From NCBI GenBank assembly GCA_003170825.1, contig PMYL01000013.1:20046-84045 (forward strand): a stretch of 64,000 bases of DNA, given 5' to 3'. Below the pieces are notes generated by a model. That model was not told the DNA's origin, searched no databases, and worked only from the letters and a program-made list of their open reading frames with translations. The number at the start of each line of letters is the position of its first letter. Within the stretch, counting starts at the first letter, position 1. Shown here in pieces: positions 6,263 to 30,106 of this stretch. The position numbers and the translations under genes are program-made. This DNA comes from Acidobacteriaceae bacterium (GTDB taxonomy: Bacteria > Acidobacteriota > Terriglobia > Terriglobales > Acidobacteriaceae).

Positions 6263-7639
6263 CTATCCTCCCATGACTTCCGCGCAGGCCGCGGTCAATC
6301 GTTCCCATATCCTGTCCAGCCACGCCTCGTGCTCGGGCTTCATCAATACTGAGCGAAGGCAAGTCACCAACCCAGCGCCGTTCGCCGCACAAAGCTCCGG
6401 CTCAAACCCAGCCGCCGGCCGAAACCATGTCAGCGGCAATTCTACAAGGGCCAGATGCAAATCCCGCGCGGCGCAGGCTGCAAAAACACGTTGCGCCAGC
6501 TCCGAGGCCAGTTCCTTGTTCTCCGCATTCAGCTTCCACACCACAATATCCAGCTCCGGAGGCGTGTCAGCCAGCGTCTGGAAGCGGTCATCCTGACGCA
6601 ACCGCCGGTCCAGCTCCAGGGCCGCCGCACGGCCGCGAGCCAGCCCACGGGCAAACTCGCCTCCCGGCGTGAGCGGCAAAAGCTGCTGCGTGGCCCACAA
6701 GGCTACCGCCGCCGCGCCGGCCCGCGAGCACTCCAGGCTTATCTCCCCCAGGTGCAACTGCCTGGAGGTGAAGTAGGTGTAGGGCGAATCGTGCTTATAG
6801 AAGCGCCCCACCGCCGGGTCGCGGAACAGCACGCACCCGCAGCCGTAAGGCTGCAAACCGTGCTTGTGCGGGTCGATCGCGATCGAGTCGGCCTGGTCGA
6901 TGGCCGCGTAAGCCCTCCGCGCTGGCTCGTCCAAAGCCTCTGGGATCAGCCGGAAATAGCCGCCGTAGGCCGCATCCACATGCACCCGGAAGCCGTATTT
7001 TTGTTTGAGCGCCAGCACCTCGTCCAGCGGGTCCACCGCGCCCGTGGCCGTTGTGCCCAGCGTGACTACAACCGTGCCCACATCGCCCCGGCGCAGCTCG
7101 GTCTCCAGCGCCTCCATACTCATGTGCCCGCGGCTGTCGGCTGGAATGTTTGCGTACTCCAGCTTGAGCACGGCGGAGATGCGTTTATGGGTGTAGTGCG
7201 CTTGCTCCGACCCCACAATTCGCCGTCCCGGCGCCAACTGCCCGGCCACCCACAGCGCCTCCAGGTTGGCCAGCGTTCCGCTCGAAGCCAGGTGGCCCAG
7301 AAACTCCGTCCAGCCGAACATCCCGGCGATCCCTTGGACGGCCTCAATCTCCATCTCCGAGCTGGCCCGGCCGCCGTCGCGCGCATGGTTGTTCGGGTTG
7401 AGGTTCATGGCCAGCGCATAGGCGGCCCGCGCCACCGGATGCGGCGGCTTCAGCATCTGTCCAGCATAGAGAGGGTGAAAATAGGGGTAGTTGTCCCCCA
7501 GCCGGTGCGCCGTTGCCTCCAAAACCTGGGCCATCGCCCCTGGATCGACGGCGGTTTCAAAGGGCGGAAGAGAGGTGAACTCCGCCTCAAGCAGCTCGGT
7601 GGCGCGGGAAAGCAGGCCGGGGACTGGATCCTGGAGCAT
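6263..7639 (-). CDS. Pyridoxal-phosphate-dependent (group II / aromatic amino acid) decarboxylase family protein
   Basis: HVDAAYGGYFRLIPEA...SIAIDPHKHGLQPYGCGCVLFRD, the PLP-lysine region of group II decarboxylases. Confidence 0.9.
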   Translation of the reverse strand: MLQDPVPGLLSRATELLEAEFTSLPPFETAVDPGAMAQVLEATAHRLGDNYPYFHPLYAGQMLKPPHPVARAAYALAMNLNPNNHARDGGRASSEMEIEAVQGIAGMFGWTEFLGHLASSGTLANLEALWVAGQLAPGRRIVGSEQAHYTHKRISAVLKLEYANIPADSRGHMSMEALETELRRGDVGTVVVTLGTTATGAVDPLDEVLALKQKYGFRVHVDAAYGGYFRLIPEALDEPARRAYAAIDQADSIAIDPHKHGLQPYGCGCVLFRDPAVGRFYKHDSPYTYFTSRQLHLGEISLECSRAGAAAVALWATQQLLPLTPGGEFARGLARGRAAALELDRRLRQDDRFQTLADTPPELDIVVWKLNAENKELASELAQRVFAACAARDLHLALVELPLTWFRPAAGFEPELCAANGAGLVTCLRSVLMKPEHEAWLDRIWERLTAACAEVMGG

Positions 7640-7890
7640 GACGACCTCTCACACTATCACAAATAGAGGCATGATTATAAACCCATATTGGTCAATAGAT
7701 TCCGGAAGTGGGAATCGCGGGATGGGACGAAACGCAAAAATTTCCGCATTGTTTTTCCAGCGGAATGGTACACTGTCGTCAGCGTTAGAGTCGAACCGGG
7801 CGTGAGCAGTAACTCGCCCAACCAAGCAAGATTCTGCCAGTGGTCGCTCCGATTCATCCAGCGCAATTCAATCCAGGAAACACGATCAAA

Positions 7891-8097
7891 ATGGAACAAG
7901 GTACTGTGAAGTGGTTCAATGACGCGAAGGGCTTCGGCTTTATCTCGCGCCAGAACGGCGAAGATGTCTTTGTGCACTACTCTGCAATCACCTCCAGTGG
8001 TTTCAAGAGTTTGCAGGAAGGGCAAGCCGTGCAGTTCAACGTGGTGAAGGGGCCCAAGGGCTGGCAGGCTGCCGACGTGCAGCCGCTCGAAACCTGA
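7891..8097 (+). CDS. cspA: Cold-shock domain protein (CspA family)
   Basis: [66 protein letters not shown]1/RNP2 motifs. Confidence 0.97.
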
Positions 8098-8121
8098 AGG
8101 CCGGATTCCGGCAGAATCTAG

Positions 8122-8169
8122 CAGACACAAGCGAGGGCTGGGAGCAATCCCAGCCCTCGCTTGTGTCTG
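8122..8169 (+). terminator. Perfect 22-bp inverted repeat with GCAA loop directly downstream of the cold-shock gene
   Basis: cagacacaagcgagggctggga-gcaa-tcccagccctcgcttgtgtctg; no clear U-tract on either side. Confidence 0.7.
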
Positions 8170-8238
8170 TGCGCCTGTGGATCATCCTGTTTCAGAAATA
8201 GGATGACAGCTGGAGCATCACCGGTGAGAATTGGACCC

Positions 8239-9564
8239 TCAGCATGGCTCTGCTGCGGCTGGGGATGGGGCATGGGCGGAACAGCGCCGCACGTAGACCC
8301 ACAGATAGAAAATGACCATGACCAACAGGATGAGCGGGGCAGGAAAGACCTGCACAGCCATTAGTATCTGCCCGGACAGCCCCGTCGCGGGCAGGTGCGA
8401 ATTGTTGATGAAACCAAGGAGAATTGCCCACGGAATATCTCCGGTCAACACGAACCCCGCGGTATTCACTAAGAGCGCGAACCAGCCGATCAGTCCGCCC
8501 TCGGCCCATAGCATGGCGCAAGCGGGAACCGTGAGCAGCAGCAGCTTGGCGTCGACTTGCCGATGATAGACAGGCAGCATGGAAAGAGCCGCGATTGCCG
8601 CGAGCGCCAGCCAGGCTCTCGCGAGCGAGGGGCGGGATCGCAGAGTGACGAACGCCCATAGGAGCAGGAGTGGCGCACAGATAAGATAGCTGGCTGGATT
8701 GTAGATGCGCGGGTCGTCCCGGAAGACGCTGATGGCCGTTTGCAGGCTTATCAACATATCGAGGCCGTGGCCACCCGTTGAAGCGAGGCCGGGGTCGTTG
8801 ATACCGCCGTGTACCGAAAACGCCAAAATATTGGAGTGCAGTTCCCGCATCCAATGCGGCGCCACCTGCCAAACCCACAGGACGCCCGGCAGGCTGATTG
8901 CAACCGCCGCGAGGAGGGTCTGCAGTGCGCGTTTGCGGTAAACTCCGCCGGCCAATAAGAAGTAGAGCCAGACCAGGCCCGTATCGTGCGGCTTGATTGC
9001 GAGGCTGACCGCAAGACACAGGATGCCGGCCGGGACAAACCGCTCCCGAAGAAAGCACCAGACGGCCACCGCGCAAAGGCTTACAACAATTCCGGCCGCA
9101 TTGCCTGTAACAATCAGAATTTCGCTGTTGGCGAGAAGGAAGCCGATCAGGGCCCCAGAGAGGATTGGCGCGTAATTTGCCCCGAGATTCCAAATCAGGA
9201 ACGAGGCAAAAATGAAGCTCCCGACGGTGAGTGTCATCCAAAGCATGCGCGCAGGCCCCCAGGGCAGCATCGCGAAGGGAACCGTGAAAGAAAATGCGGT
9301 TGGCGGGTATACATTCTGCGTCGCAATCTGGCGAACCATCGCGGTATCCGATGGGCGGTCTCCCCCCTCTGCCCGATAGATGCGCAGTACTTCACCTTCC
9401 ATGTACGGGTCGTCATGTTGAATAAGACATCGCGCGGGATAGTAAAGTGCCCTGAAATCTGCCAATGGGGAAGGAGCGGCGTTCTCCAGGGCGGCGCCCA
9501 GCAAAATAAACACCACGCTTCCCAGCAGCAGCAAATACAGGCCATCGAGCCGCGCTCTTGTCAT
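8239..9564 (-). CDS. DUF2029 / GT87-like polytopic membrane glycosyltransferase
   Basis: Multi-TM 441-aa ORF with PLADFRALYYPARCLIQHDDPY near the N-terminus and KPHDTGLVWLYFLLAGG, typical of GT87/DUF2029. Confidence 0.8.
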   Translation of the reverse strand: MTRARLDGLYLLLLGSVVFILLGAALENAAPSPLADFRALYYPARCLIQHDDPYMEGEVLRIYRAEGGDRPSDTAMVRQIATQNVYPPTAFSFTVPFAMLPWGPARMLWMTLTVGSFIFASFLIWNLGANYAPILSGALIGFLLANSEILIVTGNAAGIVVSLCAVAVWCFLRERFVPAGILCLAVSLAIKPHDTGLVWLYFLLAGGVYRKRALQTLLAAVAISLPGVLWVWQVAPHWMRELHSNILAFSVHGGINDPGLASTGGHGLDMLISLQTAISVFRDDPRIYNPASYLICAPLLLLWAFVTLRSRPSLARAWLALAAIAALSMLPVYHRQVDAKLLLLTVPACAMLWAEGGLIGWFALLVNTAGFVLTGDIPWAILLGFINNSHLPATGLSGQILMAVQVFPAPLILLVMVIFYLWVYVRRCSAHAPSPAAAEPC

Positions 9565-9777
9565 CTTGAGCCTCTCTCTGTCTTCTTTCCGGGGAGCGGT
9601 TTGAGGGTCTAGCCGCCGAACCGCATCTATGATCGTACATGAGGCCGCGGGCCGGCCGGTTGCCGGACAGCCAAGTATATAATTTCAAGAACATGTGATG
9701 CGGCTGGGGCATCACCGGCGAGAATGGCAATACGGAATAAGGTATTTGCCTGATTGCAGCAGCCTGAAACTGTTAGG

Positions 9778-20111: not shown

Positions 20112-20217
20112 AGGCGGCTGGCTGCTTCGAGGAGGTTACCGGCGGCTGGCTGCTTCCTGCTTCAGCCCGTGACAGAAGACGCCCGTTGCGATAGATTAAG
20201 GTTTTCATGGAAAGGTG

Positions 20218-20286
20218 ATGCGTGGTCCAATGTCTTTGATTCCAAAAGACCGGGATTGCGGACAGCCGGGAAGAGGAGATGGCTGA
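20218..20286 (+). CDS. Putative coupled upstream mini-ORF 1 (22 aa)
   Basis: MRGPMSLIPKDRDCGQPGRGDG*; TGATG overlap with the next start codon; similar mini-ORF precedes the paralog at 21793. Confidence 0.4.
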   Translation: MRGPMSLIPKDRDCGQPGRGDG

Positions 20287-21551
20287 TGATAGACGAGGAC
20301 CTGAGATTTCCCAACCGCAAGAAACGAGATTGGGAACAGCCACGTTTCGGCGGCAAGCTCACGGACGCGAACCTGCCAGATCCCAACGGCGAGAAAGCAG
20401 AAGAGGAACAGCTGCCTCTCAGCAGCTACACGATCATTGGATCGGCCCCGGAGAGTTCCGACGACAAGCCCGCGGAGGCGGACCGGCAATATCCCCTCGG
20501 CGTGGACCGGCAAAACCCCAATGGTGAGACGACAACTGCCTTTCCACCATTGCTTGAAGTGTTGAGTCAGCGGATTCGGAAATTCGCGGAGAGCCCAACA
20601 AGGGTCTATGTCGCGGCAGGCGTGGGACTCGGGATTCTGTTTGGAATCACAATCGCAGCCATTTCCTGGCACATCAACAACCCAAATGGGCCATATGATC
20701 TGAGATCGGTCACTTCCAGCGAGGCGGGGTTGAAGGGCCATCTGTTTCTCAAATGGGAGAAGAAGCTTCAATACCGCCTGACGTTAGAACCCAGCGATCC
20801 GAAGCAGCTTGCGGGGTTTTCGCTTGCGGTCGCCAATTCGCCGCGCCCTCTTTCCATCAACATTCAACTGAAGGATGCCCAGGGGTTTGTATTGTGCGCC
20901 AAGGACATCCTCTTGCAATACGATGCCCGGAAAGCGGCAGCTCTTGCGGCGCCCGATCCCGAGGCCGAGGCCGGGAATACGGATACGGGCAATGTCTCCA
21001 GCGACCAGTTGGCTCAAGGGATCAATGTTGCGCGATTGGAAGCTCAGGAACCTGAGCGGGAACTAGGCAAGGACATTTTCCTGAATCAAATCGGGCGGGA
21101 TGGACAAATTGACTCCATAAGCGCCCAAGGGGATATCCCATGCTCAGGGAAGGCCTATGAAAGCACTTCCTATTGGAGTTTTTCGCCCGGCTTTCCATCC
21201 CTTGCCGAGCAGGGTGAATTGCTGAAGCGGCAGGCGGATATCCGGGCGAACGAAGCGTCCGCAGCTTCTGAAAAACTTGTCGCGCGCAGGAGAATGGCAG
21301 CGAAAGCCGCGCCAAAGCCCTCCCCTTTCTACATCGAAGGAGACGATTCAATCGCCGGATATGACGCATCCGCGGGAATTATAGAAACCTTCACGGCGAG
21401 GCGTTTTCTCGTCGACAAGGCAGGCGCAGCCGCCAATGCGCTCAAAGGGCTTGACTTTCCCATAGATGTCCACTACAGGTGCGACCAGTCTGCAACCTGC
21501 ACCATCACGCGCGCCGGCGGGGGCATGCTGCACGCGAAGTTGAAGAAATGA
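20286..21551 (+). CDS. Uncharacterised single-TM protein, copy 1: degenerate 12-aa-unit N-terminus, TM helix, extracytoplasmic domain
   Basis: MIDEDLRFPNRKKRDWEQPRFGGKL...; TM GVGLGILFGITIAAISWH; C-terminal domain alignable by eye to the product of 21793-23268. Confidence 0.75.
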   Translation: MIDEDLRFPNRKKRDWEQPRFGGKLTDANLPDPNGEKAEEEQLPLSSYTIIGSAPESSDDKPAEADRQYPLGVDRQNPNGETTTAFPPLLEVLSQRIRKFAESPTRVYVAAGVGLGILFGITIAAISWHINNPNGPYDLRSVTSSEAGLKGHLFLKWEKKLQYRLTLEPSDPKQLAGFSLAVANSPRPLSINIQLKDAQGFVLCAKDILLQYDARKAAALAAPDPEAEAGNTDTGNVSSDQLAQGINVARLEAQEPERELGKDIFLNQIGRDGQIDSISAQGDIPCSGKAYESTSYWSFSPGFPSLAEQGELLKRQADIRANEASAASEKLVARRRMAAKAAPKPSPFYIEGDDSIAGYDASAGIIETFTARRFLVDKAGAAANALKGLDFPIDVHYRCDQSATCTITRAGGGMLHAKLKK

Positions 21552-21727
21552 ATCGGAGCGCTCCCTTGATAACGAAGGCATTTTCGCGTCACCTGACCAA
21601 CTGGGCACGCGAACCTGCTTTTCCTTTCTCCCAGGAGCCGGTCACCGCAGCGACAAGGGAGCAGCCTCCTGCTCCTGCCGGGGACGGAAATGTCCGTGGC
21701 GAAAGAGTAAGATATGCAGGGAAGGCA

Positions 21728-21793
21728 ATGCGTGGTCTAATTCTAATGACTCCAAAACGGGATTTCGGACAACCGGGAAAGGAAGCTGCCTGA
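21728..21793 (+). CDS. Putative coupled upstream mini-ORF 2 (21 aa)
   Basis: MRGLILMTPKRDFGQPGKEAA*; TGATG overlap with the start at 21793; resembles mini-ORF 1 with an in-frame 3-nt indel. Confidence 0.4.
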   Translation: MRGLILMTPKRDFGQPGKEAA

Positions 21794-23268
21794 TGACAGA
21801 TGCAGACCGGCAATATCCCAAGGACAAGATAGCGGATGGGAACCAGCAACATCTCGGCGGCGAGAAGCCGGATGCGGACCGGCAATATCCCTTCGGCGCG
21901 ATAACGGACGGGAACGAGCAACATCTTGGCGACGAGAAGCCGGATGCGGACCTGCAAGAGCCCCTCGGCGCGAAGCCGGATGCGGACCAGCATGAGCCCG
22001 CCAGCGTGCAGTTGGATGCGGAGCAGCAAGATTTCCTCGCGAAACTGGATGCGAAGTGGCGAGATCCAATCGGCGCGATGGCGGGTGCGGACCGGCAAGA
22101 GCCCTTCGGCGCGATAACGGCCGGGAACGAGCAACATCTTGGCGACGAGATCACGGATGCGGACCGGCAAGAGCCCAACGGCGAGATCGCGGATGCGGAC
22201 CGGCAATATCCCTTCGGCGCGAAGCCGGATGCGGACCAGCATGAGCCCGCCAGCGTGCAGTTGGATGCGGAGCAGCAAGATTTCCTCGCGAAACCGGATG
22301 CGGACCAGCAACATCTCGGCGACGAGATCACGGATGCGGACCGGCAATATTCCTTCGGCGCGATAGCGGACGGGAACGAGCAACGTCTCGGCGGCGAAAT
22401 CACGGATGCGGACCGGCAAGAGCCTCTCGGCGAGAAGCCGGATGCTGAAAAGCAGAATCCCGTCGTTGAGCCTTCCCCCGCCGTTGAACCTCGTCCCACG
22501 GTTGAACCTCCAAAGCCCAAAGTGGGCCCAATCCTCCTCATTGCAGCGATAGGCACGGGAGTCGGAATTCTGCTTGGAATCGCCATCGCAGCCATCACCT
22601 GGCATGAGGCCAAGACAACTCCTCCGCCTGAGCCGAACGTGGCGCGGGAACCAAGCCTGCCGCACGAGACGAAGGATCTGGGAACGGTCGCTTCCAACAC
22701 GGTTGGCTTGCAGGGCCATCTCATTACAAAATGGGATGACAAGCTGGAATACAGTCTCGTGATCGAACCCAACGATCCTGCGCACCTTGCGGGGTTTGCG
22801 CTTGCGGTAAGCGATCCGCCACGCCCGCTTTCCATCGTCGTCGAACTGAAGAATTTCGCCGGCTTTGTGTTGTGCCGCCAAAACATCGTGTTGAAATACG
22901 ATGCCGGGAAAGCGGCGGCTCTTGCCGCGGCCCGCGCGAAAAACCTTGCCGGGAAGAGCCATGGAAGCAATATCTCCAGCGATCGGGACAACCAAGCGGC
23001 CGATCTCGATCAATTGGAAGCTCAGGAGGCTGAGAGGGAGCGAGGCAAGGACATCTTCCGGAATCAAACCGGGCCGAATGGACAAATTGAATCCATACGC
23101 TCTCAAGGGGAGATCCCATGCCCGGCGATAGCCTATGGGAGCGTTGCCTACTGGAGCTTTACGCCAAATTTTCCTGCCGTTGACGAGCAGGATGCACTGC
23201 TGAAACGCCGGGCAAACGCCACAAGCCCATCTTCTAAAACCCCTGCTGCCCGCAAGGGGGCAAAATAG
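21793..23268 (+). CDS. Uncharacterised single-TM protein, copy 2, with expanded 12-aa repeat domain
   Basis: N-terminus of ~18 units like [45 protein letters not shown]-terminal domain homologous to copy 1. Confidence 0.8.
21796..22461 (+). repeat. 36-bp (12-aa) imperfect tandem repeat array, ~18.5 units (two units are 33 bp)
   Basis: Recurring gatgcggaccggcaatatcccttcggcgcg / gacgggaacgagcaacatcttggcgacgag; block [27 protein letters not shown] occurs with one internal variation or intact in two places. Confidence 0.9.
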
Positions 23269-23277
23269 GTCGCTGCG

Positions 23278-23475
23278 GAGCAGCCCACATATTTCTCCGT
23301 CGAAGTTATTGTCTGCGCCCTTTGCAGCTTGTCGGAGTAATCGACATACACCGCCTTCCACGTGGTGAAGAAGTCGATGGCGCCCAGGCCTTCGCGGTGG
23401 CCGTTGCCGGTGTATTTGATGCCGCCGAAGGGCAGTCGAACCTCCGCGCCGCTGTGAACGCCTGATTTTACCGCA
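23278..23475 (-). pseudogene. C-terminal fragment of an aldehyde dehydrogenase
   Basis: Reverse strand reads [50 protein letters not shown], a typical ALDH C-terminus with no catalytic part nearby. Confidence 0.75.
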
Positions 23476-23549
23476 TCGGGACAGCCATTTACGCCGGAGT
23501 TGGCGGTTCCGGTACGGCCCGGGCCCGCTGGCCGTACAATAAGCGTTGA

Positions 23550-24632
<1,083 letters not shown>

Positions 24633-30025: not shown

Positions 30026-30106
30026 AACCGGGGCCCCCAGCGACAGGTCTTCGTCGATGGGGTGGTAACCGGGGCTCCCGGCGACAGGTCTTCGTCGCAG
30101 GGGTGG
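30026..30106. repeat. Two tandem copies (41-bp period) of a dispersed element
   Basis: aaccggggcccccagcgacaggtcttcgtcgatggggtgg and aaccggggctcccggcgacaggtcttcgtcgcaggggtgg. Confidence 0.9.

Follow-up and report, generated by a model that had tools for sequence, protein, structure and literature searches.

The question raised by this locus is what kind of protein is encoded by two adjacent genes that share a membrane segment and an outer domain but differ greatly in the length of their repeat-bearing N-termini. The window analysed is a 64,000-nucleotide stretch of an Acidobacteriaceae genome, and its relevant features are collected in Table 1. The two products, copy 1 and copy 2, are 47% identical across 291 amino acids (E = 2e-74) and are homologous proteins, both predicted to be bitopic. 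The original prediction described them as a tandem pair aligning along most of their length; both reading frames are present as described, as are the quoted protein strings, but the wording that the transmembrane (TM) strings are nearly identical is slightly too strong, as these are alike and match at 13 of 18 positions. The frame of copy 1 is open upstream to a GTG at 20169, and the ATG at 20286 is the start common to relatives (MIDED... in G004 and G010). GC3 is 0.61-0.64 in the family genes versus 0.90 in the neighbouring mreB. Recent horizontal transfer was considered for this low GC3 and rejected because every congener examined is biased the same way; the low value is read as the mark of a long-standing accessory gene. 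An antisense reading frame of 666 aa (21589-23589, minus strand) overlaps copy 2. It was rejected as a gene since it runs antisense across the copy 2 repeats and the dehydrogenase remnant lies in a different frame, and it is put down to the repeats and the base composition.

Table 1. Coordinates of the two family genes and associated features in the window.
Feature	Position	Strand	Details
Promoter-like element of copy 1	20202..20231	+	TTTTCA, 18 nt, TCCAAT within block ATGCGTGGTCCAAT (20218-20231); putative function
Copy 1, full-length family member	20286..21551	+	421 aa
TM helix of copy 1	20610..20666	+	Predicted from hydropathy and charges
D1 of copy 1	20694..21260	+	Two invariant cysteines; from alignments
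D2 of copy 1	21321..21548	+	Two invariant cysteines; from alignment
Conserved block upstream of copy 2	21728..21741	+	ATGCGTGGTCTAAT; from conservation
Copy 2, D2-less paralogue	21793..23268	+	491 aa
12-aa repeat arm of copy 2	21799..22476	+	19 units of 11-12 aa
TM helix of copy 2	22531..22587	+	Predicted as for copy 1
D1 of copy 2	22672..23208	+	Alignment-based
Aldehyde dehydrogenase remnant	23313..23450	-	46 codons near the 3' end of the gene; residues 446-491 of 496, 93% identical to intact copies

The usual layout of the family is a variable, acidic, proline-rich N-terminus that is low in complexity and barely conserved, one TM helix, a domain of about 190 aa (D1), and a further domain of about 76 aa (D2). 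Both copies have the TM helix followed by D1 with its two invariant cysteines, while D2, also with two invariant cysteines, is present in copy 1 and absent from copy 2. All four cysteines are kept even in compact homologues of 272-294 aa from other genera. Read from their ATGs, the window proteins have no cysteine outside D1 and D2, and this confinement fits paired disulfides outside the cytoplasm. Positive charges precede the TM helix of copy 1, in agreement with a location of D1-D2 outside the cytoplasm; the flanks of the copy 2 helix (3+/2- versus 2+/2-) give a weak charge signal for topology. Hydropathy, charges, and the cysteine pattern point to a single TM helix with a probably cytoplasmic N-terminus, as had been proposed, and would place the repeats on the cytoplasmic side. 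Copy 1 is an ordinary member of the family, with an N-terminus predicted to be disordered and cytoplasmic and with D1-D2 probably outside.

Neither protein has a match above cut-off in Pfam, NCBIfam, PHROGs, PADLOC, or the PDB, in line with the original impression that no named family could be recognised. A literature search turned up no publication about the locus, nor anything of use on bitopic proteins that carry repeats. AlphaFold models, each built from a four-row alignment of window and L033 sequences, had a mean pLDDT of 46 for D1-D2 and of 62 for D1 only, the latter having a core of about 73-89 and a strand-rich, sandwich-like form. Foldseek, the check suggested for the C-terminal domains, returned no significant match to a known family with either model (best E 0.09, TM-scores of about 0.4 or less). 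D1 and D2 are absent from every library tested; the family is undescribed there, but is of an ordinary kind.

With copy 1 as the query, matches were obtained in 50 of 120 related genomes, all of the same genus, and copy 2 found matches in 48 of the 81 genomes of the genus. Elsewhere there were three matches in 299 genomes of the order and one more in the class. Profile searches covering the family, order, class, and phylum gained no more than sporadic homologues: G131 and G296 belong to the same taxonomic family and G313 to a different family within the class. A homologue fragment in G169 has stop codons, and no relatives were found on viral contigs or plasmids. Outside one genus of Acidobacteria the family is all but absent; within it, about 40% of genomes lack the gene, a proportion on which the draft state of some of the 81 genomes bears. 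The lineage restriction proposed originally is thus borne out, but the pair is not the unit: one gene per genome is the norm.

The tandem pair occurs only in the window genome and in palsa_87, an Acidobacteriaceae MAG (G050, locus L033). Its copy 2 lies at 7319-9691, is 791 aa long if read from the earliest start and 769 aa from an ATG further on, and is likewise without D2. A D1 tree places the copy-2 proteins of the two genomes together (support 98/96), which argues for one duplication before the species split and separate repeat growth afterwards. Given this single old duplication, D2 was lost from copy 2 and not gained by copy 1; the extra C-terminal domain that had been ascribed to copy 1 does exist, as an ancestral domain and not as an addition. 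D1-D2 are under purifying selection, with dN/dS values of 0.05 for G001-G009, where synonymous sites are almost saturated, and 0.27-0.31 for G004 compared with G052 and G010; for D1 between the copy-2 proteins of the two genomes the value is 0.48.

The arm of copy 2 had been estimated at about 18 units. Tandem Repeats Finder gives 18.1 copies of a 36-bp repeat at 21799-22445, together with a higher-order repeat of 249 bp in 2.1 copies; by period analysis and direct reading the arm has 19 units, all in frame and each of 11-12 aa. The few degenerate units noticed in copy 1 are also real, as its N-terminus scores 58.5 against the copy-2 unit profile versus a shuffle mean of 11.2, a score reached by 0 of 2000 shuffles. 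Between the 249-bp copies there are 31 nonsynonymous and 4 synonymous changes, so the units vary freely; these are small counts that unit shuffling can produce, and positive selection is not claimed. In palsa_87, copy 2 carries a 108-bp repeat in 6.7 copies (L033:7999-8719), a 36-aa period equal to three 12-aa units, with weaker periods of 12 and 24 aa, and its growth is an amplification separate from that in the window. As every unit is a whole number of codons (a multiple of 3 bp), the gain or loss of units leaves the reading frame intact.

The loss of D2, the freely varying units with their surplus of nonsynonymous changes, and the presence of copy 2 in two genomes only could together mean that it is a functionless, decaying duplicate whose repeats reflect neutral slippage in an unconstrained arm. 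This is rather unlikely, as the reading frame is intact and occurs in two species whose split it predates, D1 retains constraint between the copy-2 proteins, and copy 2 has its own conserved upstream element. Besides a sensor or scaffold, the original prediction suggested surface variation; repeats in such a system would diversify an exposed region. Tandem copies with unequal repeat lengths speak for it, but the idea is scarcely credible here, given that the repeats are N-terminal of the TM helix on the predicted cytoplasmic side, that in-frame units allow no on/off switching, and that the outer part is conserved rather than diversified.

Upstream of both copies the block RYGCRTGSTCNAAT lies 65-68 nt from the start codon, and in copy 1 and several orthologues a hexamer resembling TTTTCA or TTGTCA precedes TCCAAT by 17-18 nt. 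The block occurs nine times in 769 kb comprising the window and the loci of relatives, each time upstream of a family gene. Across the 3.49-Mb genome the pattern TGCRTGSTCYAAT is present at two sites, upstream of copy 1 and of copy 2; as about one occurrence is expected by chance from base counting and the pattern was derived from these same sites, the weight rests on the orthologues. A generic promoter scan did not list the element, and a search for a structured RNA within the leader gave no Rfam match. The block is probably a family-specific promoter that was duplicated along with the gene.

The recurring order in the genus is ntrX-ntrY-ald-lrp-family gene-(aldehyde dehydrogenase, opposite strand)-mreB-mreC-mreD-PBP2-rodA, with neighbour names based on a reading of their sequences. 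Single-copy orthologues occupy this locus in about half of the 81 congeneric genomes, and in the window both copies follow ald-lrp, on the plus strand between the lrp-type gene and the mreB cluster. A 41-bp direct repeat in two copies (90% matches) lies just after rodA, at 30026-30106. Adjacency to the mre cluster on the same strand, in the window and in G004, would suit a cell-elongation factor acting with MreBCD, PBP2, and RodA. The constant linkage with mreB expected of an elongasome accessory was not found, however: in most congeners an intact aldehyde dehydrogenase on the opposite strand intervenes, and the genomes that lack the family gene, about two fifths of the genus, keep mreB. In the window the dehydrogenase is reduced by deletion to a remnant, so copy 2 came to lie close to mreB secondarily, and a part in elongation is decidedly unlikely. 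Several congeners without the family gene retain the remainder of the neighbourhood, which indicates that the gene is dispensable.

The constant upstream neighbour is lrp, a regulator gene, and this agrees with an envelope sensor of one-component or anti-sigma-like type whose N-terminus passes on the signal, as do the bitopic layout and the constrained outer part. Domain-library searches found no DNA-binding, anti-sigma, or signalling domain, though, and the N-terminus is of the poorly conserved kind described above, which makes this role unlikely.

The preferred reading, with a probability of about 0.5, is that of an accessory protein, anchored in the envelope, which binds or tethers, accompanied by a truncated, long-armed paralogue. 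In its favour are the 47% identity between the copies, the single gene at a constant locus across the genus, the grouping of the copy-2 proteins in the tree, the four invariant cysteines, the charges ahead of the copy 1 TM helix, the dN/dS values, and the duplicated upstream block. Copy 1 would represent an uncharacterised, genus-restricted inner-membrane family with a flexible acidic cytoplasmic N-terminus, a TM helix, and an outer D1-D2 pair of the disulfide type. On this reading copy 2 was born by tandem duplication, the putative promoter being copied with it, before the split from its close relative; D2 then disappeared, D1 stayed under constraint, and the 12-aa unit multiplied in frame, which made the predicted cytoplasmic arm longer. 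D1, plus D2 in the full form, may bind a partner in the envelope or the periplasm, and the disordered arm may serve as an adjustable-length tether or docking surface on the cytoplasmic side, so that copy 2 would be a version with longer reach and no D2 contact. The absence of the gene from so many congeners, which means that any role is not essential, counts against this reading, as do the weak structure models, the lack of a significant structural match, and the weak charge signal of copy 2. Demonstrated are the homology and architecture of the proteins, the conservation of the locus and of the upstream element, the constraint, and the age of the duplication; the topology, the disulfides, the promoter, and the binding and tethering roles are inferred. 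It is doubtful that two undescribed periplasmic domain families form a trans-envelope tether or sensor in which a length-tuned, D2-less second copy cooperates with the first from twin promoters.

The result is a protein family that is coherent and under constraint, whose two domains are found in no library tested, and which would help the annotation of hypothetical proteins in Acidobacteriaceae. The family by itself opens no long-standing question; it does offer a natural experiment in which an ancestral single gene underwent an old duplication, then domain loss, and then repeat growth in two species.

Among known structures, beta-sandwich folds like those of MATH domains and IrmA share with the D1 model a strand-rich form, but no Foldseek match is significant and none is evidence of kinship. 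The single-copy orthologues of the genus, likewise uncharacterised, share with copy 1 the TM-D1-D2 order and the four invariant cysteines; the D2-less, repeat-armed paralogue, limited to two genomes, differs from them. D2 is also found alone in small TM proteins scattered across the genus (L069-L073, L075, and L048:2389-3129), which resemble copy 1 in that a single TM helix and a Pro/Ala-rich linker lead to a D2 carrying both cysteines. They differ from the family in having no D1 and no 12-aa repeats and are mostly at other loci; in G003 such a gene is directly upstream of the family gene. No neighbour gene shared among them was found, only the D2 proteins themselves recurring. As a mobile module in other TM proteins, D2 is counted in favour of the preferred reading. 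The compact homologues from elsewhere in the class (L068, L092, and L093) have the domain order and cysteines of the family, but unlike the members in the genus they are without the long arm and the D1 insert.
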